A stretch of DNA of 38,027 nt. Origin: Crocinitomicaceae bacterium. Lineage in GTDB: Bacteria > Bacteroidota > Bacteroidia > Flavobacteriales_D > Crocinitomicaceae. Below, piece after piece: positions 19,201 through 38,027 of this stretch (positions are counted from its first letter, which is position 1; each line of letters opens with the position of its first letter). Made by a program: the position numbers and the translations under genes. The stretch lies in contig JAKVAS010000019.1 of the NCBI GenBank assembly GCA_022448165.1, positions 1 through 38,027 on the forward strand. The letters are read 5' to 3'. The notes beneath the pieces were generated by a model. The model was not told where the DNA came from and searched no databases. It saw only the letters and a program-made list of their open reading frames with translations.

Positions 19201-19738
19201 TGAATCAACAAAAGAGCAATTTATTGCAGAAGAATGTCTATGTGTCATTCCATTTGAACCTACTGCAGGAGAATATATCATTGGAGCTTGGGTGAAAGTT
19301 GGAGAGAATCGAAATACGACTCAATATGCTGGAGTGGCTATTGAAGTTACGATCTCAGGGCAGCCACCAGTTTTTGTTTATCCAAAGGGTGCAATCTTAG
19401 ATGGTTGGCAACGTATGGAGGGTGAATTTACGATTCCTTCCAGTGTTTCGGGATCAACGATAATGGTTCGTTTGTTAAACAATACAAAGTCAGACCAAGT
19501 ATATTTTGATGACCTGCGAATACATCCATTCCTTGCAGGAATGACAACTACTGTATACGACCCAAAGACTTTGCTTCCGATGGCAACGCACGATGGATAC
19601 AATTTTACGACCTATTTCAATTATGATGAAAACTTGAATCAAGTTCGTGTTCGTGTAGAAACGGTTGAAGGTATTCAAACAATCTCTGAAACAGAATTCG
19701 GAGGACAGAAATCATTTAATATTAATTCGAAGCAATAA
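13220..19738 (+). CDS. Giant SpvB-like/RHS-partner protein (first half of the RHS pair)
   Basis: This 2172-residue protein starts at an ATG preceded by TAGGA. Its N-terminus (INKWLSVMLIYALFFQELIP) looks like a signal peptide. Residues about 105-170 read DGLVDKFTGDFTYSIPL through GLGWDLNVGSISREMRGLPD, the signature of SpvB-like N-terminal domains in Tc-toxin TcB proteins and in Bacteroidota RHS partners. A long glycine/serine-rich, beta-rich stretch follows (about 195-390), then many shell-like repeats. Near the C-terminus, about 1950-2115, is a jelly-roll carbohydrate-binding-like domain (GEYIIGAWVKVGE and SDQVYFDDLRIHPF). The last part, YDPKTLLPMATHDG onward, has YD-repeat character. There is no RHS core and no toxin tip here; those are in the next gene, 4 nt downstream. 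By analogy with TcB it could form half of a cocoon shell around the toxin. That is inference. Confidence 0.88.
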   Translation: MQYKTIQRKERINKWLSVMLIYALFFQELIPFVHSMNEIEFGETLKVNESAVNASLFENKILNSKNLKEKNRGIENFDELEEQEISLAVSGGPGQTESSGFSLGTTDGLVDKFTGDFTYSIPLMSVEGYPIVINYNSNVGMNTEASWVGLGWDLNVGSISREMRGLPDEFNGDQKIVRKINQLESTNDGGKFGGYVAWSKPSALFDYNNFPTVQLTALFGGYQNTYTGFGKTFDFGLQSSISIGEDIQFAPSFGTGFSIDSKNGLGKNSNYGLSLSGKKKTESGASMGMGGSLTYGKNYNSRAGIINKSLGFGANGNYSGLRGNSLKPSYGTSTALMYGSVTSVPSNRYNGTGSSFRFQLDLSNEKKMKNVLFTAGIITQIYTSTNSVDFGDAAHSQSQEIDQPAYGYLHSSKRKNAKSDELALMDFNRTNDFEYSEEMKNLAFSFQTYDIFRASALGMSGTFRARRNDVGTYYDPNVKNETNGNSVDVSAGNIVLSELEPFTNKVGLAYGHQDGDAESGNWYLSGDGNILNFETEDSGNSFDESTYFKALGESTVEDLSALEALGGEQVSHFPTVETISNNIGQSSVLKNEDGTSTLPLDGNNINNSNERPIVATCFLPNTAEQAASSSSVYQSHEENDFLSGNTTSINRIDENNDRDRNHISSIEIVSADGLQYTYGIPAYTLESSQVSFAVGSGAGLPEGRPVDPETNLVRYNLSDNGISNQLGRGHNYDKTTTPAYAHSFLLTEMRSSDYVDLGEPGLSVNDIGSYYKINHTQYYWKTSQGGSDPRPSNPYRWRFPISDDQGTQAFHNEGFEGSNLDDMANYTYGEKEIWYTHSVESKNFVAEFVLEDRDDACGVLDENGKLDADAKLKRLAKIVLYNRSERRNKGGNAIPLQTVEFIYDYSLCKNAPGNIHTYSANSDHDNSGKLTLKGIRVYSGNSVEGGLSKYAFNYATGDQNPEFNYADVDGWGNFKENDPSRPNHILPYASQNDLEANANINAWKLMSIENPMGGKIEVTYEADRYVRVQNKRPMKHLDIYGMTNLIEFLHIDTQSEWDMNQQPVSSEFRKDFGGSGLLDFFSTNGYSNNDFQLFANAAILNSGFAQYPEEFGRFDGNFVPNNVIVFKLEEALSNTDYSTKEEASQFVRDAYFKNGNGPTTYLDELLFKMHVNVKTEDNETIREFIPAFAKISKDYNHAFSGKLPFDDGFSAIGVMPPEVAGGDYEYGYVVVDPVNSGARELKNSKGNDKNGVLLHPLQRSALDFVRQNLPDQVYGSCDGCDTDLSIDAAAFFGGDIYEYMINAGYVASFEQDYSTMRLYAHNNQKYGGDARVQKITYKDNWSTISNEYDSEYSWFYEYKSAEDASGVASYEPGAIIDESPFYRWDTYVNASQKFPDETKFTPTPITGALFPIPTVGYASVNVRFSGGLDYGYSKAEFYTANDFPTVEKVTTIDINHVKRRNILSGNSVDLFGLSQGFIIETNDFHGKPKEFLVYDKYENVQSRSTYIYNDLNEKVAVIDREGIVESENIAMEYDIHADARFSTNESRSLSFGLELKFNPTFAPFMLLPTFSRQKREQGFFSNTLVKHINRSAVVNRIETEYLNSINTAENMLYDKYTGSVLLSNLTDEYGDKLFSMSYPSHWYHKELRDLYVAEDRVFNGMSIVGASLDLSSVSEDVFTPGDRIFVSTTQGGASAEAWILSITGNQAALIHESGQVYSGLSGNVDVRIVSSGRKNRLMENIQTITTKRPIDVPVSGAFSFPENEIISSSVISYRNKNNIRCREDFEAPKQNNEVVLNGPFNPYLYGVKGDLVLDGQFAWQSERKNALHEHKTRFDGAYTDFIPFYKLSNGIWYKIDELNHPNHIAADEYQLWRKLGEVTRYDEYGKALESQDQINVHSSVLYGFNKELNLLPVAQAVNARQQEIAFDGFEDYSYYENVTLNNEERHFDFLESIGTNGVKINDRVRHSGLSSLEIDAGANAVVTKNIGTDCSSPVESTKEQFIAEECLCVIPFEPTAGEYIIGAWVKVGENRNTTQYAGVAIEVTISGQPPVFVYPKGAILDGWQRMEGEFTIPSSVSGSTIMVRLLNNTKSDQVYFDDLRIHPFLAGMTTTVYDPKTLLPMATHDGYNFTTYFNYDENLNQVRVRVETVEGIQTISETEFGGQKSFNINSKQ

Positions 19739-19742
19739 GACG

Positions 19743-22700
19743 ATGAAGAGTTTAATAATTGTATTAATAGGAGTTTTCTTCGGTACGCAACTATTTGCTG
19801 GGCAAGAAGAATATAGTTCTCGAATTGAGGGGACTGACATTTTTATTGGAGCGACTAATGAGGTATATGATGTGATGTATTATGACATGAGCATCAGTCC
19901 GATATGGTCTAATCATTATACCAACCATCGGGTAAACAATTTTGTAAGGTTGGGTTTGAACCCTGAAGTGATTCAGTCAGGTGTTTTTTCGGCAGAATTG
20001 GAATTGCGCGTGAGTTACGAAGAATGGACCCCATTCGGTTTCGTAACTAGCGTAGAAGATCGAACATTAAGTGTGAATTACAACGATGATGGAACACTTC
20101 AGATTGATGATTTATCCACGTTTTCATTTGAAGGAGGACATCACGTAAATGTTGAGGTTTTAAACATTTCACCAGGAGTTGATGTCAGTAATTTGTTCCT
20201 GGAAACGAGTATTGAGATAGAGCGTTATTATTCGTTTGATGGAGGATCTGTAACGGGGGCTTCCTATACGTTTGCGGGAACCAATAACAGTTACATTCAA
20301 TTTGATTGGGATGTAAAAATAGGCGCCGAATATTATGAATTGGAATTTGTTCACATTCATGATTACACTTTTGATCCTGCTGTTTTTCAACCAATGACCG
20401 CGTTGAGTTATGATTTTTATCTGAATTCGACAAGAGTTGCAATAAAAGATAATTCGTACAAAATCCCAGCGATATTTGATCATGGCTATGTATTATTTCG
20501 TGTGCGTCCAATTGGAGTTCAAGGAAGTAATTTTGATAAACGTTATGACGGCGCATGGAATGCAACAGAAAATGGTATTGTTGCCTATTTCCGAATTGAT
20601 CAAAGGATTCCGGTTGGTATTGAATACGATGTGAATATGAATTGGGCGCATCAAATTGGTTACGCAGAAGATGGTAAACGATTTGAAGGAATTAGTTTCA
20701 TGGATGGTTTGGGCAGAGGCCGCCAATCTGTATCGCACAATACAGCGACGGAACAAGCCATTGTGTCCAATGTTTACTATGATGAATTGGGACGTCCGGC
20801 AATCAGTGATTTACCAACTCCTGTGAATGGAAACGAATTAAAACATTACTATAAGTTTAATCGCCCAGAGAGTGATTTAAATGAGTCGTATCAAGCGATG
20901 TATTTTGATGATGGAAATGTTGTGAATGATCCCAACTGTGAAGTGACAAGTGCAGGTTTTTCTCAAAACTATGGAGCAGGAAAGTATTACTCTCCAAATA
21001 ACAGTGATTTAGATGGAGAGAATGCGAACATTCCCGATGCTGAGAAATTCCCGTTTAGTCGAGTGACCTATTTGGATGATTATACGAACCGTGTTAAACG
21101 TATCGGTGCTTTTGGAAATGATTTGAAGATTGGTTCAGGGAAAGAAACAAAGATGATTTATGTTTCTCCGAATCAAACAGAATTGAATAAACTCTTTGGT
21201 TCAGAGGTAGGTCATTACTCGCATTATCAGAAAATGATTACAATTGACGCGAATGGACAAGCGTATGCCCAATATACGGATATGGCGGGTCGTGTGGTAG
21301 CGAGTTTTATGATCGGACCTTCGCCTTCGAATATTGAAGCAATTCAAGATAATATTATAGCACCTTCGACGGTAGATCTATTGCTTAACGGTAATTTTCA
21401 AACAACGAATGCTGCACCTCCATCAACTACGTTGACACACTACGAGTACTTTGCAGAGGATGATACGTACACATTTAATTATGGATTTACTCCAGCTCAG
21501 TACGAATTGACATGTTTGCCTGCAAATATTTGTTTTGATTGTGTCTATGACCTTTCAATTAGCATTACAGATGATTGCGGCGTTGAAGTTTTTGAGAGCA
21601 CTGTTTCTGTAAACGGAACAACATTCGATGAACTATGCAATGGTGCTTCTACACACGCGATGAATGAGCAAATTAGTCTTTTAGCAGGACGCTATGCAAT
21701 TGAGAAAACACTTACAATTAATCAAGCAGCAATCGACGAGTATTGGTGTACGTTTATAGATAATTCAACGTGTTTAACTCCGTTGAGTGAGCATTTTAAT
21801 GCTTTGTACACAAATGAAGATTTTGATAATTGTAATGAAGATGAGTTGCAAGAGAGTTTGAATGCGTGTGAAGCAGTTAGAGAAATCATGCTCGAAGATG
21901 TTTCTCCAGGGGGGCAATACGCCCTATACACGGATTTAGGAAGTGATTATACTCCAGCGGATGTTGCGTCACAAGCCGTGTTGAATAATTGGAATACTGG
22001 CCAGTTTTATGATGAACAAGGAGTGTTGTTCACTCCGGCTAACTTGAAAGATTTTGTGGACAATTTCCTTCCCGAATGGGCAGATCAACTTCTGTTATTT
22101 CACCCTGAATATTGCTATTTAGAGTTTTGTGAGTTAAATCAAGCTTCGGACACCTATAATGAAGGAATGTTGTCAACCGATGAATTTGATGTTGCATTGA
22201 CAACCGGTTATTTTGAACCCGTTTCTGCTCCAGCTCCAAGCAACGTTTTTGATGGAGGGCCAGATCCAGCTGTTTTAGATCCATTTTTTAATGGCGGACA
22301 AGGGACGGCTTATCTTTCTGGTGCAGGAAATATGAGTGATTTGATGAGTAGTTACTCAACTTATACACTTACGAATGGAGTTAATATTCCAATTACCATG
22401 TGGGAATACGCAGTTCTAATGGCATATGGGACTCCAGATTTTAATGACATTACGGCATTACGTGATTTTCTGGATCATTGGGATACAGAACAATGTAACA
22501 ATGATGATTTAGTTTGGATTATCTTCAGAGCGGCATACCTTGAAGCGAAGTCATCCTATTTTTATCAAGCGCAACAAGATCATGTAGCGGCAAATGCTTG
22601 TTCAAACGAATGCATTGGTTCTTCTGATCCGGGGTGCTCTGATTATGCACAAAAAGTTCCACGTTTTGGAAATGCTGCATTGCAAATTGGAACAAGTAAC

Positions 22701-25700
22701 ATTTCAATAGCAGATTTGTTACAAACCAATAGTGGTAGTCAGGCACAAGCGTTGATAAATGCGCAGATGGCAGCGGGTTGTCAGCAATATGCAGAACAAG
22801 CTGCATCCGATTGGATGAATTTATTATCTGGATGTGATTTTGTTGCAAATGGAGTAAACATCGTAGATCTTGAAGCGGATATGGTAGCATTGATAAGCTC
22901 TGCTTGTGATGAAAACAATCCGCAGGGAGCAAGTACAACACCGAATCCAATTCAAACTTCAAATGGAGTAACGGTAAGTTCTTTGGAAGAATTGTTGGCC
23001 GCTTACGGTTTAACAGAATCGAATTTATGTACCGATTTATTGATTTCCACACCTGGAGTGTATCAAACGGCTGAACAAGCAATTGCTCAGTTGGAAAAAC
23101 CATTGGATGTATGTGGTTGTGATCAAGTATTGGAAGCTGAATTAATCGCAAATGACCTTTCCATTTCCCCAGAAGAAGCACTCGCTCAGTTAACAGGTAT
23201 CGATTTAGCGGATGTAGATTATATTATTTGTGCTTGTTCAGAAAGGGAACCATCTTGGACGCCAAATTATGCGTGGCCATCTGGATCAAATGCAGCCTTG
23301 GAAGCAACAGGAATCACAATCCCAACACAATTGTCGTGTGACGAGTGTGAAGTGGACTGTGCAATGATCAATGCGGACATCTCCACATTAGAGGCGCGAT
23401 TTAACATCAATGATTTTAGCAGTGCGGCTAATTATGAAACAATTCTAACGAATTACCTTAATGTGCAATATGATTATACGCTTCCATTTGAATCCTATGA
23501 AACATTCATTGGGCAGTGTGGTGCAAGTCCATCTAATCCATATTGTGAAGTAAATCCTTTCTTATACAATTGGGTGGAGGCAATGAATCTGATTGCGATG
23601 CGCGGACAATTACTGAATGACAATACATCTCAAGTTGTTTTGTCTGATGAAAACATCGTATTTGCCAATACAGGTTTCAAAGAATCTAATTATTGGTCTT
23701 CACAAGCAGGAAATGTGCTAAGTATGCACTACGGACAAACAGGTGGTAATTGCACAATTGAATTAACGACAGATCTTGATTTTTCATCCATCGTTGGATT
23801 TGGAAATGTGGTTCCGTTAACGACAAACTGTTCGGGAAATAATGAGTTTGAGGTAGAAGTCAAATACATCGATTGTGGTGAGATAAAGACAAGTTATGAG
23901 AAGGGGCTTTCAAACTGTTTTGAAGTCACTACATGCGTTTGTGATCCAACTGGTTTGGTATTATGTGATGAACTTCCTGAATTGTATAAGGACCCATGTT
24001 ACGAACCACGTTTAAGTCAGATGTATCAAGATGCCATAGCGGCATATGAAGCGGAAGTGTTAGAGGCATATGCAGATTTTACAAAGGCGTACAATGAGCA
24101 ATGTTCTGAAGCATTTTCAACGGAAAACTTCAATTATACAGGAAATGTGCGTGAGTATCAATATACCTTATTCTATTATGATCAAGCGGGTAACCTAACG
24201 CAAACGGTGGCTCCTGAAGGAAAAACGAATTTGTTACCAGGTGAACTTGCTACGGTGAATGCTGCGAGAGATGCCATTCAAGATGATCAATCAACAGGAC
24301 TTTCTGTAACACCAGATCATGGTTTTAAAACAACCTATGAGTATAACTCATACAATCAATTGGTGTCTACTACCAATCCTGATCAGGAAGGCAACACGAA
24401 GTTTTGGTACGATCGATATGGTCGTATTGTCGCTTCTCAAAATCCTGTTCAGGCAAATGAGTCGAAGTATAGTTTTTCTTTCTATGATAAACAAGGACGC
24501 CCTTTCTTAGTTGGACAAGTAGAGCAAACAAATGCACTTACAGAAGCGATTGCCAAAATGGATGATCAAGGTGTCTCATTTCAAGCTTGGACGAATGCAG
24601 GTGTTCTAACGGAAGTGACATTTACGCAATACGACCGTCCAATCGGTCCTGCGATTCCAGCTATGTTTGCCAATGGAGAACAAGAAAACCTTCGTTTGCG
24701 TGTAGCAAGTGTTATCTACTATGCGGAAGTGAATGGGACCTTGTTCGGAGACTATGAATCGGCTACGCACTACTCATATGACATCCATGGAAATGTAAAA
24801 GAGCAAATTCAAGATGTACCAGCGTTGCGGCCTGTGGAGCAAGATTTAAAATCAACGCAGTACGAGTATGAGTTGATTTCTGGAAATGTGGAAAAAGTGA
24901 GCTACCAAGAGGGTGAACGCGACTATATTGCCCATGAGTATTGTTACGATGAACTGAATCGATTGACAGAGGTTTCTACTTCAACGGATGATGTACACCA
25001 CTCACGTGAGGCGAGTTATCTCTACTACGATTATGGCCCGTTGGCGAGAACCGAATTAGGACAGTATAATGTGCAAGGTTCTGATTTTGCTTATACAATT
25101 AATGGTTGGTTAAAAGGATTGAATGCATCTACACTCAGTCCAGAACATGACATGGGACATGATGGCCAAGGAGGTTATTTGGCGAATGTAAATAGTGTGC
25201 ATTCATTGTTCGCAGCGGATGTCAACGCTTACACCATGGGATACTTTGATGGTGATTACTCTCCTATTGGAGCGTCCACAATGGAATTGAGTCTGCAATC
25301 TACGGACGCCTTTGCACAAGGAACGAAAGACTTGTTCAATGGAAATATTAGCCATGTGGTCAACAGTGTTTATGGCGTAACCACTATTGGAAATGCGTAT
25401 ACCTATGATCAATTACAACGACTAAAATCTGGAACAGCTTATTACAATATCAACACGGATAATTCGTGGTCGGGAATGATTGCTACGGATGATTACCACA
25501 ATACTTATAGCTATGATAAAAACGGTAATCTGAAAACGTTAAAGCGAAACGGAACGGTAGCATCAGGTTTATTTATGGATAAGTTTACCTATCACTATGC
25601 AGACGTGGCAGGAGTGGCATCTAACCGATTGGATTATGTCAATGATTACGGGTACGATTACCAAAACACGCCAGGTGTAAATGATAATGGAGACATCAAG

Positions 25701-27887
25701 TCGGGAATTCTCCCAGGAAATGTTATAGTTCCTGGAGTTGGAATGACTGCTGGAAATTACCAATACGATGAAATTGGTCAATTGTTATCGGATGAAGATG
25801 AAGGAATCCAAGAAATGGAATGGCGTAGTGGCGATAAAAAACTGAAGCGTATTGTTCGTACAACACAAGATCTGAATTCATCGGAAATTGAATTTGTCTA
25901 CAATCCATTTGGAATTCGCGTGTTGAAAATTGAGAAACCACGTTCAAGTGGAGGGCTCGAATCAGAAGATCAGTGGAAGTACAGTTATTATGCTTACGAT
26001 GCAAACGGACAGTGCATGGCTGTGTATGACGTAACGATGAGTGAGGAGAATAATCAGGCTTTCTTAAGTGAACAACATCTGTATGGAGCATCTCGATTAG
26101 GAATGCTAAAACAAGAGAAGTTGCTGTACGACAATGATAATTTTATTGTCGAATCAAAAGATGTACGTGAGAACACCCTTGGCTTGAAGCGCTACGAATG
26201 CACCAACCATTTGGGGAACGTGCAAGCAGTTATCAACGACCGAAAAGTTGCAGTACCCATCGGTTCGGCGAGTATTTACGAGGCGGTTGTATTAATGACC
26301 AGTGATTACTACCCATTTGGAATGAAAATGCCAAACGCATGTGTAGGAGGATCACAAATGGTAGAAACAGAACACGTATTCGCTTCAGGAGACTTTGAAA
26401 CGGACGGGGATATGGAAGATTGGTTAGATTGTAATGGAGCATCCAATACCGTTTCGAATGGAAGCCTAATACTTCAAGCAAGTGTCAATGCAGGTTCAGG
26501 AAACTGGGCAGCGTGTGCGCGTCAATTTATTACAGGAACGTATATTCAACCCGGAGATGTGGTCCATGTAGAAGTAGATGTTGAATCCATTGACTTCCCT
26601 GTCGCTGGATTATACTTCGGACAAGGAACAGGGGTAAATGGGCTGTATTTTAATCAATTACAAGTTGGTTCAAATAGCTTCACGTTCACAGCGCAGCACT
26701 TACTCAGTAATGTTGCCATCATAGTGAATAGCGCACAGGGTTCTGGTAACCATCAAGTGGTGGTAAATAGCATCAAAGTATGGAAAGAAGAATCGGTTAC
26801 GGTTGCCTGTCAAGGATACATCAATAATGATTACCGCTACGCGTATAATGGTATGGAGGTAGATAATGAGGTGAGTGGTAATGGAAATCATTATGATTAC
26901 GGTGCTCGGATGTATAATCCGAGATTAGGAAGATTCTTGAGTCTTGACCCTAAAATGGATCAATATCCTTTTATGTCGCCATATTGTTATGCCGCAAATA
27001 ATCCAATTTTATATATTGATGAAAATGGAGAAGGACCAATTATCGGATGGAAAGTGAAAAGCAAAAAAAATGCTGATGGTAGTTTAACGATCACTGTTTC
27101 CATTGATGTCATGAGAGACCTTATCGTTGTTAATGAATCTTCCACTAATTTGACTAGACAACAAGGAGCGAAAATAGCTCAAAGCATAAAAAACAGTTAT
27201 CGATATAATTTCGCCTATGAATTCAGTGACGATAATACTGATGATGCAGGTATAATGGCTGAGTTACGCTCATTGTATGATCATTTAGACCCAAATCAGA
27301 AAATTCATGTTAATGTTGAAATGAACCTACATTCAAATTATGCCGCTTATGTTGAAAGTTTATCAGAGGTTAAATATGAGCAAGTTTCACTGATTGTTAT
27401 GGTTGATAAGATTCCAGGAGTTGCGCATTTAGATAATCCCATTGGTTTGTCTGGACTTAATACTGATGCCGTTAAAGTAATAGCTGATTATATCTCTCCA
27501 ACTGGATTTGAGGACAACACACCAAATCAAGAAATTAATCTTAAAAAGTCGAATACATCTACTCATGAAATAATCCATATGGATGGAGCATCTGATTTAT
27601 ATACAACTAAAAATGGTAAAGTTTTAAATAAAGGATCTGGACTAATGGGCGCTACAGAGGCTCAGTTCAGTTTGACGTCCCAAACTAAAAGAGAGATTGC
27701 AGAATTTTGGCTGCGAAATGCAATCTATGGAGGGGGAATAGGAGCAGGTGTTAAGGGATACCAAAACAGTATGAATGCGCCAAATATAAAAACAAGAAAG
27801 TTTAACGGAACTTCTGGTGAATTTCGATATGATCCGGATCCGGACTCAACGCCCGTAGAAGATTTTGAAGAAATGCCACTACACTAA
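19743..27887 (+). CDS. RHS-repeat polymorphic toxin with HExxH metallopeptidase-like C-terminal tip
   Basis: The ATG at 19743 gives a clean signal peptide (KSLIIVLIGVFFGTQLFAG); the frame is open further upstream only from a TTG. In the 2714-residue product, about 315-360 is a DUF6443-like segment (MDGLGRGRQS, YYDELGRPAISDLP), and about 550-1450 is a long cysteine-rich region. About 1470-2195 holds RHS/YD repeats (YDRYGRIVASQN, YSYDKNGNLKTL) and ends YYPFGMKMP. A carbohydrate-binding-like domain is inserted at about 2213-2356. The RHS core spans about 2365-2430 (YDYGARMYNPRLGRFLSLDP, then NNPILYIDENGEG). The tip, 2432-2714, carries HEIIHMDGASD at 2608-2618, matching HExxHxxGxxD with Asp as possible third zinc ligand, and SGLMG around Met2635 as a possible Met-turn. 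A zinc endopeptidase toxin is the best reading. The gene directly follows its SpvB-like partner. Confidence 0.9.
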   Translation: MKSLIIVLIGVFFGTQLFAGQEEYSSRIEGTDIFIGATNEVYDVMYYDMSISPIWSNHYTNHRVNNFVRLGLNPEVIQSGVFSAELELRVSYEEWTPFGFVTSVEDRTLSVNYNDDGTLQIDDLSTFSFEGGHHVNVEVLNISPGVDVSNLFLETSIEIERYYSFDGGSVTGASYTFAGTNNSYIQFDWDVKIGAEYYELEFVHIHDYTFDPAVFQPMTALSYDFYLNSTRVAIKDNSYKIPAIFDHGYVLFRVRPIGVQGSNFDKRYDGAWNATENGIVAYFRIDQRIPVGIEYDVNMNWAHQIGYAEDGKRFEGISFMDGLGRGRQSVSHNTATEQAIVSNVYYDELGRPAISDLPTPVNGNELKHYYKFNRPESDLNESYQAMYFDDGNVVNDPNCEVTSAGFSQNYGAGKYYSPNNSDLDGENANIPDAEKFPFSRVTYLDDYTNRVKRIGAFGNDLKIGSGKETKMIYVSPNQTELNKLFGSEVGHYSHYQKMITIDANGQAYAQYTDMAGRVVASFMIGPSPSNIEAIQDNIIAPSTVDLLLNGNFQTTNAAPPSTTLTHYEYFAEDDTYTFNYGFTPAQYELTCLPANICFDCVYDLSISITDDCGVEVFESTVSVNGTTFDELCNGASTHAMNEQISLLAGRYAIEKTLTINQAAIDEYWCTFIDNSTCLTPLSEHFNALYTNEDFDNCNEDELQESLNACEAVREIMLEDVSPGGQYALYTDLGSDYTPADVASQAVLNNWNTGQFYDEQGVLFTPANLKDFVDNFLPEWADQLLLFHPEYCYLEFCELNQASDTYNEGMLSTDEFDVALTTGYFEPVSAPAPSNVFDGGPDPAVLDPFFNGGQGTAYLSGAGNMSDLMSSYSTYTLTNGVNIPITMWEYAVLMAYGTPDFNDITALRDFLDHWDTEQCNNDDLVWIIFRAAYLEAKSSYFYQAQQDHVAANACSNECIGSSDPGCSDYAQKVPRFGNAALQIGTSNISIADLLQTNSGSQAQALINAQMAAGCQQYAEQAASDWMNLLSGCDFVANGVNIVDLEADMVALISSACDENNPQGASTTPNPIQTSNGVTVSSLEELLAAYGLTESNLCTDLLISTPGVYQTAEQAIAQLEKPLDVCGCDQVLEAELIANDLSISPEEALAQLTGIDLADVDYIICACSEREPSWTPNYAWPSGSNAALEATGITIPTQLSCDECEVDCAMINADISTLEARFNINDFSSAANYETILTNYLNVQYDYTLPFESYETFIGQCGASPSNPYCEVNPFLYNWVEAMNLIAMRGQLLNDNTSQVVLSDENIVFANTGFKESNYWSSQAGNVLSMHYGQTGGNCTIELTTDLDFSSIVGFGNVVPLTTNCSGNNEFEVEVKYIDCGEIKTSYEKGLSNCFEVTTCVCDPTGLVLCDELPELYKDPCYEPRLSQMYQDAIAAYEAEVLEAYADFTKAYNEQCSEAFSTENFNYTGNVREYQYTLFYYDQAGNLTQTVAPEGKTNLLPGELATVNAARDAIQDDQSTGLSVTPDHGFKTTYEYNSYNQLVSTTNPDQEGNTKFWYDRYGRIVASQNPVQANESKYSFSFYDKQGRPFLVGQVEQTNALTEAIAKMDDQGVSFQAWTNAGVLTEVTFTQYDRPIGPAIPAMFANGEQENLRLRVASVIYYAEVNGTLFGDYESATHYSYDIHGNVKEQIQDVPALRPVEQDLKSTQYEYELISGNVEKVSYQEGERDYIAHEYCYDELNRLTEVSTSTDDVHHSREASYLYYDYGPLARTELGQYNVQGSDFAYTINGWLKGLNASTLSPEHDMGHDGQGGYLANVNSVHSLFAADVNAYTMGYFDGDYSPIGASTMELSLQSTDAFAQGTKDLFNGNISHVVNSVYGVTTIGNAYTYDQLQRLKSGTAYYNINTDNSWSGMIATDDYHNTYSYDKNGNLKTLKRNGTVASGLFMDKFTYHYADVAGVASNRLDYVNDYGYDYQNTPGVNDNGDIKSGILPGNVIVPGVGMTAGNYQYDEIGQLLSDEDEGIQEMEWRSGDKKLKRIVRTTQDLNSSEIEFVYNPFGIRVLKIEKPRSSGGLESEDQWKYSYYAYDANGQCMAVYDVTMSEENNQAFLSEQHLYGASRLGMLKQEKLLYDNDNFIVESKDVRENTLGLKRYECTNHLGNVQAVINDRKVAVPIGSASIYEAVVLMTSDYYPFGMKMPNACVGGSQMVETEHVFASGDFETDGDMEDWLDCNGASNTVSNGSLILQASVNAGSGNWAACARQFITGTYIQPGDVVHVEVDVESIDFPVAGLYFGQGTGVNGLYFNQLQVGSNSFTFTAQHLLSNVAIIVNSAQGSGNHQVVVNSIKVWKEESVTVACQGYINNDYRYAYNGMEVDNEVSGNGNHYDYGARMYNPRLGRFLSLDPKMDQYPFMSPYCYAANNPILYIDENGEGPIIGWKVKSKKNADGSLTITVSIDVMRDLIVVNESSTNLTRQQGAKIAQSIKNSYRYNFAYEFSDDNTDDAGIMAELRSLYDHLDPNQKIHVNVEMNLHSNYAAYVESLSEVKYEQVSLIVMVDKIPGVAHLDNPIGLSGLNTDAVKVIADYISPTGFEDNTPNQEINLKKSNTSTHEIIHMDGASDLYTTKNGKVLNKGSGLMGATEAQFSLTSQTKREIAEFWLRNAIYGGGIGAGVKGYQNSMNAPNIKTRKFNGTSGEFRYDPDPDSTPVEDFEEMPLH

Positions 27888-27897
27888 AAAAAATGTC

Positions 27898-28194
27898 ATG
27901 AAAAAATATTTGTTCTATTGTTTAATTGGTTTTCTTTCAGTGGGATGCAATGAAGAAAAGCAAAATTCCAGTAAAAATGAGAAGAAGGTTACTAAAGAAG
28001 AAAAGAAAGAAATCAAACCTGTTTTTTCAGATGGGAAGATTAACGGGTTTGAAATAGGCGAATATTCCTTTGAATTACCTCAAACATCAAAGGTTTATTC
28101 TTCATCTGGAACAGATTTCTCCAACTTTTACGTAGAAGATGCTGTACATGGAAATTTTGGTCTTTATTTTGGTTTTTTTCCATCTTATCCTTAA
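27898..28194 (+). CDS. Candidate immunity lipoprotein, possibly truncated by a REP element
   Basis: The 98-residue product starts 10 nt after the RHS toxin stop; I use the ATG at 27898, which gives a lipobox FLSVGC with Cys17. The next residues, NEEKQ, are acidic, a feature associated with surface-displayed Bacteroidota lipoproteins. A lysine-rich linker follows (NEKKVTKEEKKEIKP), then a short domain GKINGFEIGEYSFELPQTSK and a final FGLYFGFFPSYP. The position directly behind a toxin tip is where immunity genes sit, so an immunity role in the envelope is plausible but unproven. Its TAA stop at 28192-28194 is part of a repeated sequence (TAACCAGCTCCGCAG, again at 28548), which suggests that a REP insertion cut off a longer gene. 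Confidence 0.75.
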   Translation: MKKYLFYCLIGFLSVGCNEEKQNSSKNEKKVTKEEKKEIKPVFSDGKINGFEIGEYSFELPQTSKVYSSSGTDFSNFYVEDAVHGNFGLYFGFFPSYP

Positions 28195-28255
28195 CCAGCT
28201 CCGCAGTAGTTGTACTGCTGTGGAACCAACACGCGGCTGGATTTGTAATCCTGCC
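28192..28255 (+). repeat. REP-like element 1 plus adjoining second hairpin
   Basis: TAACCAGCTCCGCAGTAG begins at 28192. The hairpin stem is CCGCAGTAG (28201-28209) with CTGCTGTGG (28215-28223), allowing G-T pairs. A second hairpin follows at 28235-28255, with arms GGC-GGATT and AATCC-GCC around TGT. Its core TGGATTTGTAA reappears inverted next to element 5. The pair looks like a composite REP unit. Confidence 0.75.
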
Positions 28256-28349
28256 ATAAATAATAGGAACTAATTATTTAAATAAATTTTAATTACATCT
28301 TTTTTGCGAAAGTTAAAGCTGGATATAGAGTCCAGCTTTAACTATTCTG

Positions 28350-28379
28350 AACCAGTTTCGCAGTAGTTGCACTGCTGCG
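28350..28379 (+). repeat. REP-like element 2
   Basis: GAACCAGTTTCGCAGTAG begins at 28350. The stem is CGCAGTAG (28359-28366) with CTGCTGCG (28372-28379), loop TTGCA. It is a diverged direct copy of element 1. Confidence 0.75.
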
Positions 28380-28485
28380 TATATTTTTATAGTAGTTAGT
28401 CCTTTGCTTACAGTTACATTGCGCTATAATTCATGTGAACTGAAGTAGATTATTTGAACGCAATAAAGAGCTTTTGATTTTCGAA

Positions 28486-28516
28486 GGGAGTAGCGAAGTA
28501 GTGCAACTACTTCGTA
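28486..28516. repeat. REP-like element 3, perfect palindrome
   Basis: A perfect 8-bp stem, CGAAGTAG at 28494-28501 and CTACTTCG at 28507-28514, encloses the loop TGCAA. It is preceded by GGGAGTAG, which resembles the GGAG or GTAG tetranucleotide found beside REP hairpins. Confidence 0.65.
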
Positions 28517-28547
28517 ACGCTTAAAGGCTATAAAATAGAAAACACCA

Positions 28548-28582
28548 TAACCAGCTCCGCAGTAGTTGTACTGCTGCGGAAT
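28548..28582 (+). repeat. REP-like element 4
   Basis: TAACCAGCTCCGCAGTAG begins at 28548, identical to the start of element 1. The stem is CCGCAGTAG (28557-28565) with CTGCTGCGG (28571-28579). It ends 7 nt before the 3' end of the transposase gene. Confidence 0.78.
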
Positions 28583-28589
28583 CGTCATT

Positions 28590-29162
28590 TCAAACACTCT
28601 TTAACATCGAAGAAATACAATGTACTTCAGGAAGTAAAGCGTCTAATTCATGATAATTTGTCGCAGAAGAATAAAGCCAATCTTCTGCTTTTGAAACGTA
28701 TTGTTCCTTGACAGGGTTGTTGTGAATGTAATTAATCTTGCTCCAGGTAAAGTCTTCATTGATTAATTCAATAGCGTGATTACTTGTTTTCCAAAATTTA
28801 TAGGTTTTACTCCTAGCATTTGCTTTTCCTGCCATCTCAAATATATCAAGCATCCATTCTCTCCTACTTTCTGGCTCATTTTTTATTTGAGCGATCAATT
28901 GTTTGGTGGTATGGCGTTTAAAATCTCGAATAGTATCTCTTAATTCATGCGGATGATTTGTATTTACAATTAGGTGTAAGTGGTTTGTCATAAGACAATA
29001 ACTATAAACATTCAACCCTTTGTTTTGTATGCAATATCTCAATGACTGAATGATTAGATCTTTGTGATTTTTACGCGTGAATACATCAATCCAGCCTACG
29101 ACTGTTAAGGTCAGAAAGTAGGTTGATTTCTTTTTAATAGTATGCTTAATTCCTTGCCTCAC
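28590..29162 (-). CDS. REP-associated tyrosine transposase (RAYT, Y1_Tnp family)
   Basis: This 190-residue protein belongs to the IS200-like single-strand transposase family. It has the HUH metal-binding motif HLHLIV (His61 and His63 in MTNHLHLIVN). A helix KINYIHNNPVKEQYV near residues 142-156 carries the candidate nucleophile, Tyr145. This NYIHNNPV phrase is typical of RAYTs, which act on REP palindromes rather than on their own insertion-sequence ends. Length is normal for the family. The start codon is GTG at 29160-29162; an in-frame stop lies four codons upstream (TAA) and no earlier ATG exists. The gene is bracketed by related palindromes, direct on the 3' side and inverted on the 5' side. 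It appears intact. Confidence 0.92.
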   Translation of the reverse strand: MRQGIKHTIKKKSTYFLTLTVVGWIDVFTRKNHKDLIIQSLRYCIQNKGLNVYSYCLMTNHLHLIVNTNHPHELRDTIRDFKRHTTKQLIAQIKNEPESRREWMLDIFEMAGKANARSKTYKFWKTSNHAIELINEDFTWSKINYIHNNPVKEQYVSKAEDWLYSSATNYHELDALLPEVHCISSMLKSV

Positions 29163-29186
29163 TTCTATTTAAGTTAACAAATATTA

Positions 29187-29214
29187 CGCAGCAGTGCAAC
29201 TGCTACTGAGCTGC
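29187..29214 (-). repeat. REP-like element 5, inverted copy
   Basis: CGCAGCAGTGCAACTGCTAC at 29187-29206 is the reverse complement of the type found in element 2 (GTAGTTGCACTGCTGCG, with small changes). It lies 25 nt upstream of the transposase GTG. Just beyond it, TTACAAATCCA at 29215-29225 is the inverse of the TGGATTTGTAA beside element 1. Confidence 0.7.
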
Positions 29215-29275
29215 TTACAAATCCAACAACTAATTGTATGTAATGACAAATAAAAACACATTGAGATTTCAGGAC

Positions 29276-30262: not shown

Positions 30263-32623
30263 ATGAGGTTTTTTTCGAAAACAAAAATGTACTTAGTATT
30301 TCTGGGACTAGTACAATCCATTTTATGCAGTACTGCATTATTTGCTCAGGACAATTACTATTGGACGGATGGAGAGAAATATCATCTCTCGGAAGATCGT
30401 AGTTCAATTATTCTACACTTCAAAGAGGGCTATCCTGTTGAGAAATATCTGAAAGAAGATGCTCCTACCAAAGATTTGGCAATGCATGCCTACTACAAAA
30501 GAGCCGTACTTCAGTTTGCTGACGAATATGATGGAGAGGCTATTGATTTGGCGAAAAAAATGGTAACCGATCCATCTGCGATACGCAGTGCTAGCTTTGC
30601 CTACCAATATGAAGACGGTTTTAAGGTTTGGTTAACTCACCGAGTCGTTTTGGAGTTAAAATCAGGAACAAGTATTCGGGCAATAGAGCAATTGATGGAA
30701 AGATCGGAAGCAAGCTTAGTGAAGCAAGAATATGGGCGCACACTTATCGAGGCAAAGGATATTGATCGTGTATTCTCACTAGCCAATCAGCTCAAAGAGG
30801 CTGGGTTAGTCGAATGGTCACATCCAGACTTCTATGCAAAAGTTTCTATGGATAATCACGCCAACTATAATTTCTACCCAGCACCTCCTGATCCAAAGTT
30901 TACACAACAATATCAATTGCACCAAAATAACGATATCGACTGTGATGCACCAGAGGCCTGGCAATGGACAACAGGTGAATCTAATATAACAGTTGCAGTA
31001 ATAGATGAAGGTATACTGAATGCTGGTCACACAGATCTCCCGAATTTCTTGCCTAATAAAAATAAAGAGGTACCGTTGCCTTTTGGGGCTTTAAGTGGTC
31101 ACGCATATGCTTGTGCCGGGATTATCAATGCTGCTCATAACAACAAAGGAGTATCAGGAATAGCTCCCGGGGTAAAGCTGTTTGGCGTATGGATGGGGGC
31201 ATCCTATTCAGAAACAGCAGACGCTATTAGTTATGCCAAACAAAAAGGTGCCGATGTAATTAATAATTCTTGGTCATACAGTAGTTGTACCGTGAATATT
31301 GCTGCTGTAAATAATGCGATAAATGACGCTGCCAATAATGGTCGCAATGGGAAGGGATGCGTTCTTGTATTTTCTTCTGGCAATAATGGATCCAGTTGTG
31401 TCAACTACCCTGCCAATCACCCTAAGGCCATCGCTGTTGGAGCCGTAGGGCGATATGGTAGCATTGCGAGCTACAGTAATAGAGGTCCCAAACTAGATTT
31501 AGTAGCCCCCTCAGCGATTGATGCTATTGGTGATGTATGGACGCTAGATCTTCCTGGAACAAGCTATACAGGTAATAATAAAGGATACACTCCTGGAAAA
31601 TATTATGGGAAATTTACAGGGACATCAGCTGCCGCCCCTGTTGTTTCTGGTGTAGCAGCTTTGATGCTTTCTCTTAGACCCGATTTCACTTCTCAGCAAG
31701 TGTATAGTGTTATGACGTACTCTGCTACAGATATGGGAACAAATGGTCGCGATAATACCTTTGGCTGGGGAAGAGTGGATGCAGATGATTCCTTTATAAA
31801 TTCTGCGGTAAGTAAATGTCTCGGAATTAATACCAACGCCTCTAATATTAATAGCTATGGTAATCAAGATCAAGGAGGTTATGTCAAGTTAAACTATGGG
31901 GGAATACATCTTCACGGCAACGCCTGGAAATCCATTGCATTAGATTATGTTGTAACGGAACATACCCGTGTTTCGTTTTGGTTTTATAGTTGGCCTGGCT
32001 CTGAGGGCGATCTACACGGTATTGGCTTTGATGATGATAATTCACCTAATTACTATAAAATGTTTAAAGTCTATGGGACTCAACAAAAAGGAAATCGTAC
32101 TTATGATAATTACGGTGGTTCCGGATGGAAATATTATGAGATTCCCGTTGGTCAATTTTACACCGGTTGGATGAATCGTTTTTTACTTATGAATAAGGAT
32201 AATAACCCTAACAATGTCTATGCACAAAGTGTTTTTCACGATATAAAAGTGTATGAAGATGACAACAAGTGGAATTGCGAATCTTACTCTAAAAATGGGA
32301 CTCCTATACCACCTTCTTATATCCCTACATTAAGTACCAAAGAGGAGTCTAATATTGCGGATTTGACAGTAGATTCTGAAATCAGTATATCCCCTAATCC
32401 TGCTAGTACGCTTATCAAAGTTCAATTGAATATAAAGAATACGAATGCTGTGTGTAGCCGTATTACGAATAATTTAGGACAAATTGTAAAAGAACAAGCG
32501 ATTACGAATACTAACAGAATTCAGCAAATCAATATATCAACACTACCTGTTGGTATGTACTACCTTACCGTAGAACTTTCTGATGGAACAAAAACTACAC
32601 AAAAGTTTTTGAAAAATAAATAA
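30263..32623 (+). CDS. Secreted subtilisin-like serine protease (S8) with T9SS sorting domain
   Basis: The 786-residue precursor has a signal peptide (ending ALFAQ at 29), a propeptide-like region to about 210, and an S8 catalytic domain at about 215-515. The triad is Asp248 in VAVIDEG, His280 in SGHAYACAGI, and Ser455 in GTSAAAPVVSG, with Asn374 in SSGNNG as the oxyanion residue. The second motif reads GHAYACAG rather than the usual HGTxVAG, but keeps the histidine. Residues about 525-680 form a beta-sandwich, binding-like domain. About 710-786 is a type-A T9SS C-terminal domain (ISISPNPASTLIKVQLN, LPVGMYYLTVE, KFLKNK). The enzyme should be secreted and degrade proteins outside the cell. A strong terminator follows 110 nt after the stop. 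Confidence 0.93.
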   Translation: MRFFSKTKMYLVFLGLVQSILCSTALFAQDNYYWTDGEKYHLSEDRSSIILHFKEGYPVEKYLKEDAPTKDLAMHAYYKRAVLQFADEYDGEAIDLAKKMVTDPSAIRSASFAYQYEDGFKVWLTHRVVLELKSGTSIRAIEQLMERSEASLVKQEYGRTLIEAKDIDRVFSLANQLKEAGLVEWSHPDFYAKVSMDNHANYNFYPAPPDPKFTQQYQLHQNNDIDCDAPEAWQWTTGESNITVAVIDEGILNAGHTDLPNFLPNKNKEVPLPFGALSGHAYACAGIINAAHNNKGVSGIAPGVKLFGVWMGASYSETADAISYAKQKGADVINNSWSYSSCTVNIAAVNNAINDAANNGRNGKGCVLVFSSGNNGSSCVNYPANHPKAIAVGAVGRYGSIASYSNRGPKLDLVAPSAIDAIGDVWTLDLPGTSYTGNNKGYTPGKYYGKFTGTSAAAPVVSGVAALMLSLRPDFTSQQVYSVMTYSATDMGTNGRDNTFGWGRVDADDSFINSAVSKCLGINTNASNINSYGNQDQGGYVKLNYGGIHLHGNAWKSIALDYVVTEHTRVSFWFYSWPGSEGDLHGIGFDDDNSPNYYKMFKVYGTQQKGNRTYDNYGGSGWKYYEIPVGQFYTGWMNRFLLMNKDNNPNNVYAQSVFHDIKVYEDDNKWNCESYSKNGTPIPPSYIPTLSTKEESNIADLTVDSEISISPNPASTLIKVQLNIKNTNAVCSRITNNLGQIVKEQAITNTNRIQQINISTLPVGMYYLTVELSDGTKTTQKFLKNK

Positions 32624-33017: not shown

Positions 33018-33101
33018 TAATGAGGTCCTACTCGAATAGAAATAATTAAGCTGTAATTTTACAAATACTTCAATATGTATTTGAAAGGCGATTTAAATTA
33101 T

Positions 33102-35945
33102 ATGAGAACCTACCTTCTATTTATTGCATGTTTTCTATTTAGCTCTATTTGCTGGTCTCAGCTCTTGGAAGGGTCAGATTCCTATATTCAAGAAAAAATT
33201 GATGTTTCTAGTGGAATGCCGAGTAATGAGGTTTATCATGTGGTTCAAGATCAAAATAACTATTTGTGGTTCGCAACGGATAATGGCATCGTAAAATACG
33301 ACGGAACAAAGTTAAAAGTATACACCGCGAATGATGGTTTGCCTGAGAATGTCGTGTTTCGGTTTTATCCCCAAAAAGATGGTAGAATATACGGAGAAAC
33401 GATTGGGAATAAATATTTCTATATCGAAAACGATTCGATCGTTCCTTTCAAATACAGCAATATCATTCAGGCTAAATTTTCAAGGTATAGAATGTACTCT
33501 TTTTATATTGATTCATCCGAAAATTATCATTTCGGTGGGAAAGCTGTAGAACTTGTTTTGTCCAATCAAGGTGAAATTTTGTACGAGTGCACTCCGGTGT
33601 TCGATTCGGAAGTTGTTTATATTTTGAATTTAAAAGAGCAGGATGATTACGTATTTACGAGTGTTTCTTATGAATCCCAGGGAGGCGACAGGATTGTTCA
33701 TCGAGATAGAAATGAGGTGTATGAGAATGTTGTAAGAGGCAAACTATATAACCTGTATGGCGAAAGAAGCGCAACCAAGGTAAATAATAAAGTAGTTGCG
33801 GTCACGTATGGAGATAGGGCTATAGTTCTTAAGGAGGGTAGAATAATTCAAGAGTTATGTAAAGGTCAAGAGGTTTTGGATATTCAAAAAGTAGGGAGAA
33901 GAATATGGGTTTCTACAGCAAGAGAGGGGGCAGTTTCATATGATATTTTGGGAGACTCTTTAACGAATAAAAAAAAGTATTTAAATGGATTATCCATAAC
34001 GTCAGTACTAGAGGATCATGAAGGAGGCCTTTGGTTTACAACGAGAGAGGAGGGTGTAGTTCATATGCATCAATTTGAAGTGTCCCGTTACTATAGGTCA
34101 AATATAGCGTCAAATATCAGTGCTTTTTATAAGAATGATAAGTATTGCTTAATTGGTTATGAGAATGGACAAATGGTAGATGCGCATGCGGGCAAAGTGG
34201 TTCTTAAAATCACGAAATACTTTCGAGATATACTTCCTTGGTCGGAGGGGGTAATATTTCCTTTGATAGGGACAGAAAGACAAATACTATATTCTTTACG
34301 AGATCAAAAGGAGATACCGTTTTTAGATAAAAATGATTCTTTGCATTCGTTTCCGGTTAGTGGGCAATATTATTTACTCGGAGATAGAAATATAGTACAC
34401 TACTCGTATTGTGTCGGTTCAGTAAATAAGGAAACGAACGAGTTTACAAAGTTGTTTTCAGATCATGAGATAAAAGAAAGTATTCAGAAAATAGTTGTTG
34501 TTGGAAATCTCATTTGGGCAGTGACAAAAAAATCGCTGCTTCAATTGAACATTAGAAGCAGGAGTATAGAGCTTAAATTGCCAATTTCTGCCACTCCAGT
34601 AATGATTAAAAGATATGGTAAAACATGCATGATTGCCTGTCGCAATGGAGATGTTTACGTGTTAGAAGGGGATAAGCTTGTCAAGCAGGAGTTTTTAGAA
34701 ATAAACAAGGATTCGAGGCTGTATGATATAGAATTATATGGGGATCAGTTAATTGTTGCAGGCAACACAGGAATAAAGAAATATAAACTTCATGCCAGGC
34801 TTAATAAATGGATCAGAACTTCATTTTTTGGTTTAAACGGAGTAGTTAAAATATATAATTATGGTGATGAGCTTTTTTACATGACCAAGAAAGAGGTTTA
34901 TCTCGATCGAAACGTAAATGCGAAACCAATTATTCCCATTGTACGATTAAAAAGAGTGAAAGTTAACGATGCAATAGTTCCATTGGATGAAAAGGCATGT
35001 TTTTCTTATGACAGAAATAATGTATCGTTTGATTTAAATTCCATTTCGTTTGGAGCTGATTTTTTACAATATCGATTTAAGCTTAAAGGGAGAGATGAGA
35101 AGTATCGATTTACTTCAGATCATAAATTGACCTATTCTGCGCTGCTTCCTGGAGAGTATGAGCTGTTAGTGAGTTCGACAACAAACGGATTGGATTATTC
35201 TGCCGTGAAGCATTTTACCTTTGTCATTGAACCTCCATTTTGGAAAACGACCTGGTTCATGGTTTTGGTTGTTTTATCGCTAATTATTTCTGTGATCTTG
35301 CTATATCGTAATCAGATGAAAAAATATAAGGCTAAACATTTGATGAGAGAAACAATTAATGAATTGAAATCAAAGGCACTAGCGGCTCAGCTAAATCCCC
35401 ATTTGATTTTTAATGTGATGAATTCTATTCAGGCGACAATCGCCGAACAGGAAACAGAAAAGGCCAATATTTATCTTTCTCGTTTTGCTCAGTTTATGCG
35501 AATGACTTTGAATGTGTCGAAGCAAATAAGCATTTCATTTAGAAAGGAAATGAACCTCACAGAACAATATATTGAACTAGAAATGTTGAGATTTCCATCG
35601 GGATTAGAAATAAATATTGACCTTGATGAGAAGTGCTTTAATTGGGAAGTTCCTCCATTGATACTTCAACCTTATATCGAAAATGCAATTAAGCATGGTA
35701 TAATGCCTGTTGAAATGGACGATGGACAAATTGAGATTTCAGCACAAGAAGAAAGTGGTTGTTTTACCATTCAAATTATTGATAATGGAATAGGTTTGGA
35801 TGAAAATGAATCCTTTAAAGAAGGAGATGGTATGAGAATTTCAAGAGAACGTATTCAGCTATTGAATGCAAATAATACCGTTGAAGTTTTGAAAAGAGAA
35901 AAAGGAACAATGATACAAATTCAATTATTTACACCAGATGTTTAA
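33102..35945 (+). CDS. LytS-type sensor histidine kinase with beta-propeller sensor
   Basis: I use the ATG at 33102, which gives a signal peptide (RTYLLFIACFLFSSICWSQ); an upstream ATG at 33075 would add nine residues in front. The 947-residue product has an N-terminal two-component propeller sensor (Reg_prop-like blades such as DQNNYLWFATDNGIVKYDG and DHEGGLWFTTREEGVVHM). Next are a Y_Y_Y-like domain (about 640-712), one membrane helix (about 715-737) and a His_kinase domain. The phospho-acceptor is His767 in QLNPHLIFN. The ATP-binding N box is PYIENAIKHG with Asn861, and DNGIGLDE at 894 is the G1 box. It overlaps the response regulator gene by 8 nt, so the two are translationally coupled partners. 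The signal is unknown. Confidence 0.93.
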   Translation: MRTYLLFIACFLFSSICWSQLLEGSDSYIQEKIDVSSGMPSNEVYHVVQDQNNYLWFATDNGIVKYDGTKLKVYTANDGLPENVVFRFYPQKDGRIYGETIGNKYFYIENDSIVPFKYSNIIQAKFSRYRMYSFYIDSSENYHFGGKAVELVLSNQGEILYECTPVFDSEVVYILNLKEQDDYVFTSVSYESQGGDRIVHRDRNEVYENVVRGKLYNLYGERSATKVNNKVVAVTYGDRAIVLKEGRIIQELCKGQEVLDIQKVGRRIWVSTAREGAVSYDILGDSLTNKKKYLNGLSITSVLEDHEGGLWFTTREEGVVHMHQFEVSRYYRSNIASNISAFYKNDKYCLIGYENGQMVDAHAGKVVLKITKYFRDILPWSEGVIFPLIGTERQILYSLRDQKEIPFLDKNDSLHSFPVSGQYYLLGDRNIVHYSYCVGSVNKETNEFTKLFSDHEIKESIQKIVVVGNLIWAVTKKSLLQLNIRSRSIELKLPISATPVMIKRYGKTCMIACRNGDVYVLEGDKLVKQEFLEINKDSRLYDIELYGDQLIVAGNTGIKKYKLHARLNKWIRTSFFGLNGVVKIYNYGDELFYMTKKEVYLDRNVNAKPIIPIVRLKRVKVNDAIVPLDEKACFSYDRNNVSFDLNSISFGADFLQYRFKLKGRDEKYRFTSDHKLTYSALLPGEYELLVSSTTNGLDYSAVKHFTFVIEPPFWKTTWFMVLVVLSLIISVILLYRNQMKKYKAKHLMRETINELKSKALAAQLNPHLIFNVMNSIQATIAEQETEKANIYLSRFAQFMRMTLNVSKQISISFRKEMNLTEQYIELEMLRFPSGLEINIDLDEKCFNWEVPPLILQPYIENAIKHGIMPVEMDDGQIEISAQEESGCFTIQIIDNGIGLDENESFKEGDGMRISRERIQLLNANNTVEVLKREKGTMIQIQLFTPDV

Positions 35946-36651
35946 AGCGATTGTAATTGAAGACGAATATCCTGCAAGAGTGATTTTAAAGAATTATTTG
36001 AAGCGTTATTTCCCAGAATCAATAGAGGTGGTGAAAGAGTTTGAAACGATTGATCAACCGATACCTTTTTTGAAAAAGAATAGTGTGGATATTATCTTCT
36101 TGGATGTACACTTGAGAGATGGTAAAGGAACTGACTTATTGAATAAATTGGACTCGAGTAAGTATAAAATAGTGTTCACAACAGCGTTTAATGAATATTC
36201 CTTAGATGCTTTTGAACATAAGTCTTTCGGTTATCTCTTGAAGCCACTAAATCCGCTCGATTTTAAGGAGATTGTGGAACGAGTGATAAAAGTGCTTAGT
36301 TCGACTATCCGAGTGGAGCTTGAGTCAAAAAAAATCAAAATTCAGACCTCAACAGGAAGTGTTTGGGTAAGCACAAGTCAAATAGTCCGTTGTCAATCAA
36401 TTAACAATTATACGGAGGTCTATGTAGAGTGCTCAAATGAACGATTTGTGTTAACTAAAACACTAAAGAAAGTCGAGATGGAAGTAATTGCCGACAATAA
36501 CTTTTTTAGGTGTCATCAATCACATTTGATTAACCTGAATTATCTATCAATCCCTGAAATAAGAAATAACATATTGAAACTTGATAACGGGGATGAAATA
36601 CCCGTATCTAGATCAAAAAGGGTGCTTTTCGAGCAAAGGATGAGTCAGTAG
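35938..36651 (+). CDS. LytTR-family response regulator
   Basis: The 237-residue protein has a receiver domain (1-120) with the acidic pocket Glu8-Asp9, phospho-acceptor Asp56 in FLDVHL, Thr81/Thr82 and Lys102 in LLKPL. A LytTR DNA-binding domain follows (about 135-235; SINNYTEVYVEC, FFRCHQSHLINLNYL, DEIPVSRSKR). Such regulators bind direct repeats upstream of target promoters. The ATG lies inside the end of the kinase gene (overlap 35938-35945). The targets are unknown; the secreted protease upstream is a possible neighbour target, but this is only proximity. Confidence 0.95.
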   Translation: MFKAIVIEDEYPARVILKNYLKRYFPESIEVVKEFETIDQPIPFLKKNSVDIIFLDVHLRDGKGTDLLNKLDSSKYKIVFTTAFNEYSLDAFEHKSFGYLLKPLNPLDFKEIVERVIKVLSSTIRVELESKKIKIQTSTGSVWVSTSQIVRCQSINNYTEVYVECSNERFVLTKTLKKVEMEVIADNNFFRCHQSHLINLNYLSIPEIRNNILKLDNGDEIPVSRSKRVLFEQRMSQ

Positions 36652-37852: not shown

Positions 37853-38027
37853 GATGTAAAAATACGCTAGATTGTTTTTCGTAGTTTTGTCAAACAAAAA
37901 GCTTTCCAAAAGAACATTGTTGAAATCTAATAGCACATCCAAGTTAACGGTTGCCCTCATTGAAATTGGTGGGTCACATGATGAATGTCTTTATAGTCAA
38001 ATAGCTGGATTAAAAGCAGTAGGGTGT

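Follow-up and report, generated by a model that had tools for sequence, protein, structure and literature searches.

A metzincin-like zinc motif in the C-terminal tip of a Bacteroidota RHS protein, a probable peptidase toxin

The stretch of DNA analyzed here (hereafter the window) comprises 38,027 nucleotides (nt) of contig JAKVAS010000019.1 from a Crocinitomicaceae bacterium (assembly GCA_022448165.1). It encodes an RHS protein, the C-terminal 283 residues of which, the tip, are the subject of this study. In an initial annotation, made from the letters of the DNA alone, the tip was described as a toxin module with the zinc motif of a metzincin. The following features are of importance.

13220 to 19738, plus strand: upstream partner protein of 2172 residues; its open reading frame (ORF) ends 4 nt before the ATG of the RHS gene, and its role is suggested by this adjacency.
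19743 to 27887, plus strand: RHS protein of 2714 residues, with PF20041 and PF05593 (Pfam) and TIGR03696 (NCBIfam), all above cut-off.
26826 to 27029, plus strand: RHS repeat-associated core TIGR03696, above cut-off, directly preceding the tip.
27036 to 27887, plus strand: C-terminal tip of 283 residues, a metzincin-like peptidase domain (about residues 1-232, as judged from relatives, alignments and profile comparisons) followed by a poorly conserved tail.
27564 to 27596, plus strand: HEIIHMDGASD, residues 2608-2618 (tip residues 177-187), with the putative zinc ligands H2608, H2612 and D2618 and the putative catalytic E2609; conserved in relatives.
27600 to 27602, plus strand: Tyr, two residues past the Asp ligand.
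27636 to 27650, plus strand: SGLMG, the candidate Met-turn, tip residues 201-205.
27898 to 28194, plus strand: lipoprotein-like ORF of 98 residues, the immunity candidate, starting 10 nt after the RHS stop codon and with its own stop codon inside a REP-like repeat.

The ORF at 19665-27887 is open throughout, and the protein starting at ATG 19743 begins with a signal-peptide-like stretch and is probably exported. The arrangement by which RHS polymorphic toxins are recognized, an RHS core with a variable tip C-terminal to it, is present, with TIGR03696 ending at nt 27029. Since only 4 nt separate them, the 2172-residue protein and the RHS protein probably form one unit, and adjacency suggests that the former makes up the first half of an RHS shell built from two proteins; nothing above cut-off was found for it in Pfam, and no match in NCBIfam or among PDB sequences. 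Likewise, at L045, a plasmid locus treated below, a protein of unknown function precedes the RHS gene and overlaps it. In a limited literature search no experimental study of a two-protein RHS system of Bacteroidota was found.

HEIIHMDGASD and SGLMG, with the Met 17 residues after the Asp, lie where the initial annotation had placed them, among the 283 C-terminal residues encoded by an intact ORF, and residue 2608 is the start of the only HExxH in the whole protein. As far as PMC12237041 was available, the zinc motif of metzincins is given there as HExxHxxG/NxxH/D, a pattern which HEIIHMDGASD matches. When the residues of the tip were shuffled, HExxHxxGxxD arose in 13 of 200,000 shuffles and HExxH in 158 of 20,000. 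Stronger evidence against a chance motif is its conservation in related tips. Searches for other carriers of the tip yielded five further RHS tips (L010, L011, L016, L077, L045), and HExxHxxG was kept in all six, the window included, the third ligand being Asp in five and His in one (L045). The initial annotation had named homologues lacking the motif as evidence against its proposal; among the five relatives none lacks HExxHxxG, but in L045 the Asp is replaced by His. Catalytic Glu, both His, Gly and the Asp or His ligand were retained across tips that are only 19-34% identical to that of the window. Met-Gly was aligned in four of the six tips, 12-19 residues after the Asp, with SGMG in L016 and NIM in L045 nearby. 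The Tyr was present in five of six, at the position where some metzincins have a tyrosine switch (PMC12237041, same part).

With the tip as query, 395 genomes from the whole phylum and 399 from the order were searched, and with a profile of three tips 240 genomes of the family (own genome included each time); a conserved-pattern search covered 84,980 species genomes, in which 76 stretches matched a pattern and two encoded relatives. Two close relatives were obtained, both in the family of the window: L010 (= L005, G534; 35% identity) in Fluviicola chungangensis, and L011 (= L003, G041; 32% identity) in a metagenome-assembled genome titled Chryseobacterium gleum. Both are RHS tips, linked to the RHS core through the same GEGPI junction. 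Among the residues invariant in the three close tips are HExxHxDGAxDxY, the Met-Gly of the candidate Met-turn and a subsequent TKxE. The L011 tip is carried on an RHS-core fragment of 377 residues, one of four such fragments that form an array (4975-11328 of L011). Every fragment in the array has a different tip and a follower gene of its own, and VGIRTCSDYSPFGV is found near the start of all four. Two weak genome matches (L004, L006) were rejected as other proteins without the motif. The fourth match of the family profile, L009, and nine similar loci encode conserved free proteins of about 300 residues, which carry HExxHxFG[AS]xDLY together with a Met further on and a stretch TxxxIGW. In hhalign they matched the close tips over 35 columns only, which was regarded as no more than motif likeness. 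These proteins possibly constitute a family of free zinc peptidases of Bacteroidota that has not been named, and L009, the member scanned, had no Pfam match above cut-off. No relative was detected in viral contigs (tip, three-tip profile and L045 as queries), in plasmids (tip and L003 as queries) or in phages.

The more distant relatives connect the tip to recognized metzincins. L016, an RHS tip from a different family within the class, was found by a profile match (E 6e-5) in a search that, with an E limit of 1, gave matches in 37 of 395 genomes; 14 loci and L009 were scanned, among which L016 was the only new RHS tip. Used as query against 72,556 plasmid records, L016 gave a single match, L045, the tip of an RHS protein on a Bacteroides finegoldii plasmid (34% identity over 39% of the query, E 3e-4). 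With a profile of both, L077 was found among 70 genomes of the family of L016 (E 2.8e-4); it is 24% identical to the window tip over 229 residues, Met-turn included. L045, which carries HExxHxxGxxH, scored 26.6 bits with Pfam Peptidase_M10 (PF00413), above the cut-off of 24.0, and among PDB sequences it matched matrixin chains (E 6e-5), and L077 reached 19.9 bits (E 4.9e-4) with Peptidase_M6 (PF05547), below the cut-off of 22 bits. In hhalign the three close tips matched L077 with 90.9% over 160 columns extending through the Met-turn, L016+L045 with 92.0% over 136 columns and L016 alone with 86.2% over 89 columns; close tips plus L016 matched L045 with 93.5% over 127 columns, a value that is not independent, as L016 is itself a relative of L045. 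Homology to a recognized metzincin family was thus found via intermediates only, from the window tip through L077 and L016 to L045. In a PDB search with a profile of all six tips, metzincin-type zinc proteases made up most of the best 60 matches listed. An HExxH scan of 30 loci, taken from a search matching 36 of 395 genomes (E up to 0.5), contained no further RHS tip, and L078-L084 were discarded as free proteins with HExGHxxGLxHC, which we take to be archaemetzincin-like. A Leptospira plasmid also matched L045 (E 6e-3).

A short gene on the same strand is located at the end of all six tips. Besides that of the window, the follower of L045 starts 5 nt after the stop codon, those of L011 and L077 overlap by 4 nt and that of L010 by 38 nt, while that of L016 overlaps the stop of the tip by 77 nt (listed TTG) or 29 nt (inner ATG). 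Lipoprotein-like starts were recognized by eye in five of six followers, that of L045 not being clearly so. The follower lipoproteins of L010 and L011 are related (25% over 156 residues, E 2e-4, pairwise comparison), and between the window ORF and the L010 lipoprotein a short, weak local similarity was found in a single pairwise comparison (E 0.009 and 0.019). Because the immunity candidates are lipoprotein-like, it is suggested that the toxin works outside the cytoplasm. The lipoprotein may instead reflect the delivery system and not this enzyme, since a lipoprotein also follows another type of domain: just upstream of the L077 tip an M91 domain (PF14891) with a lipoprotein-like follower is encoded. 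The natural end of the window candidate may be altered, because its stop codon lies inside the first of several repeats (28189-28225). The followers of L010 (10800-11345) and L011 (10825-11328) share a CxxCH, placed in a cytochrome-c-like context; the window ORF lacks CxxCH, and the L010 lipoprotein matched Cytochrom_C550 below cut-off (E 0.018); CxxCH is unexplained for an immunity protein against a metalloprotease.

Core fragments and tips with follower genes, as in the L011 array and in the M91 domain upstream of L077, display the anatomy of exchangeable toxin-immunity cassettes. It is by these relatives, among them the L011 tip on its short fragment, and not by base composition, that the proposed exchangeable module is supported. 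The claim of an AT-rich tip was overstated: the difference is real but small, with a guanine-plus-cytosine (GC) content of 36.2% in the whole tip, 40.1% in the RHS body and 36.8% in the entire 38-kb window. The lowest GC among 215 equally long, overlapping stretches of the body was 37.7%, above that of the tip. As proof of an exchangeable module this difference was rejected as too small.

Among known peptidases, the initial annotation had singled out the snapalysin pattern. The two best PDB profile matches, 1c7k and 4hx3, are small Streptomyces-type zinc proteases, which we take to be snapalysin, and were not significant (E 0.037 and 0.039, motif region only). Snapalysin (MEROPS M7) shares with the tip HExxHxxGxxDxY, in which Asp is the third ligand, and a Met not far behind it, and ranks best among PDB profile matches; however, it is a free secreted protease and not an RHS tip, the match extends over about 35 residues only, and no Pfam match assigns the tip to M7. 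Immune inhibitor A/thuringilysin (MEROPS M6, PF05547) fits about equally well, with HExxHxxGxPDxY and a Met, by way of the below-cut-off match of L077, whereas the window tip itself does not reach the gathering score of PF05547. Five proteins which we presume to be M6-like matched the close tips in hhalign with 85.3% over 50 columns, at the motif only, and were set aside. The matrixins (MEROPS M10, PF00413) are connected by L045, linked through L016, but have His as third ligand, as does L045, where the window has Asp, and the window tip has no PF00413 match. In the part of PMC3482391 available, the toxin domains catalogued in 2012 include Tox-MPTase1-5, HopH1 and lethal-factor-like metallopeptidases; an association with RHS repeats is given for Tox-MPTase1-5 and for HopH1, and Bacteroidetes for Tox-MPTase1, 2 and 3. 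Like the tip, Tox-MPTase1-5 and HopH1/M91 are HExxH metallopeptidase domains of RHS toxins; by contrast, Tox-MPTase1-5 are characterized there as distant relatives of Wss1, and none is described in that part with HExxHxxGxxD and a Met-turn. No metallopeptidase Pfam model was matched by the window tip. Because such tips were already listed (PMC3482391), the combination of a Bacteroidota RHS protein with a metallopeptidase tip, which had been thought possibly undescribed, is not new as a kind. What is left of that suggestion is that this tip seems to represent one more, uncatalogued family of zinc-protease RHS tips; among the titles listed in a literature search, no mention of a metzincin- or matrixin-type RHS toxin tip was found.

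A number of results count against regarding the tip as a metzincin-type toxin. It gave no match above cut-off in Pfam and none among PDB sequences or in NCBIfam. The six-tip profile retrieved no significant PDB chain (best E 0.037), and two low-confidence predicted models, with a predicted local distance difference test (pLDDT) score below 50 over nearly all of the active site, had no significant fold match. (Trimmed, the tip had no Pfam-A match at E up to 10; in the direct Pfam search a sub-threshold match to RNA_pol_Rpb1_7 (E 0.0041) was set aside as chance, as were Tfb5 (0.056) and OCIA (0.089), one each among the two close relatives.) Close tips against L045 alone reached only 9.6% over 37 N-terminal columns, so that the link to L045 runs through L016. 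Matches to free peptidases confined to the motif region already reach 85.3 and 88.5%, and for this reason everything from HExxH onward was deleted and the remainder compared with shuffles: L077, L016 and L045 each scored above 200 of 200 shuffles, and the L016+L045 profile above 299 of 300 column shuffles, one of which reached the observed score. The hhalign probabilities after this removal were low (4.6 to 23.1%), each N-terminal match being weak when taken alone. Within the genus, matches to the window lipoprotein were weak and confined to four of 33 further genomes (best E 0.0017). Finally, intact ORF, signal-peptide-like start, core before the tip, motif and domain in five other RHS tips and followers in six of six were read from the sequence, whereas toxicity, side of action and immunity are what we infer.

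Since similarity exceeds that of shuffles after the HExxH region has been removed, the relation of the tips extends past the motif. The proposal of a zincin with Asp as third ligand is carried by conservation and by intermediate sequences, with no direct family match. To judge from these, the tip is likely a zinc peptidase of the metzincin type and, if so, would with good probability be an antibacterial toxin acting outside the cytoplasm; taken as a whole and against its rivals, the reading as a metzincin-type toxin tip is rather probable. Two His and one Asp would serve as ligands and the Glu as general base, with the Met-turn at SGLMG. Within an exported RHS polymorphic toxin the tip would be the exchangeable toxic part, enclosed by the RHS shell and released on contact with another cell, where it might cleave proteins of the envelope, in the periplasm or at the surface of the target, while the downstream lipoprotein would protect the producer. 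More tentative, and somewhat doubtful in its entirety, is an uncatalogued family of Bacteroidota RHS-tip metzincins with a His/Asp ligand switch that acts on the envelope and is paired with immunity lipoproteins, two of them with a CxxCH possibly blocking the active-site metal.

Alternatively, an active zinc peptidase could serve in the processing or release of the RHS protein itself, or in the digestion of proteins outside the cell, and not in the poisoning of a rival. Releasing peptidases, metallopeptidases included, belong to polymorphic toxins (PMC3482391, in the part mentioned), a variable tail of about 50 residues follows the conserved part of the tip, and a subtilase with a secretion tail, another exported protease, is encoded nearby (30263-32623). 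However, the C-terminal end is the position of the toxin, the L011 tip forms a cassette beside other tips on a core fragment of a few hundred residues, and a short gene after each of six tips is as expected of immunity, so that this explanation appears unlikely. The same genes, mostly lipoprotein-like and directly following the tips, speak against a zinc peptidase aimed at eukaryotic cells such as grazers or hosts, in which case the downstream gene would not be an immunity gene; moreover, the relatedness of the L010 and L011 followers suggests a kept toxin-immunity pair. A eukaryotic target would accord with the M91 domain encoded just upstream of L077 and with the resemblance of some metallopeptidase tips of the same class to anti-eukaryote effectors (HopH1/NleD; PMC3482391, same part), and is considered slightly less probable still. 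A decayed or non-peptidase zincin-like fold, in which the motif is kept for metal binding or structure only, would accord with Acel_2062, solved with the same HExxHxxGxxD, for which the available part of PMC3890501 reports a water in the putative zinc site and no Met-turn. Such a fold is improbable here, as Glu, both His, Gly and the Asp or His ligand have been kept at the low identities given above, together with a Met-turn-like Met.

Downstream of the immunity candidate, further REP-like hairpin repeats (28346-28382, 28545-28581, inverted copy 29183-29217) together with the first flank a Y1-type transposase ORF (28590-29162, minus strand, PF01797), and repeats and transposase presumably form a RAYT-like element (28189-29217). 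The exact 18-base core of the repeat occurs in only two places in the genome, both within this element. Beyond the subtilase, a sensor histidine kinase followed by a LytTR response regulator (33075-36651) and an N-acetylmuramoyl-L-alanine amidase (36935-37960, minus strand) are encoded.

If the tip is indeed a metzincin-type toxin, the matrixin/snapalysin/M6 type of protease would join the toxin tips of bacterial RHS proteins, and the tips would provide a small natural set, one member having His as third zinc ligand and all others Asp. The lipoproteins paired with them would then be candidate natural inhibitors of metzincins, and a peptidase tip together with its inhibitor would give access, in a form open to testing, to the RHS system of two proteins in Bacteroidota.

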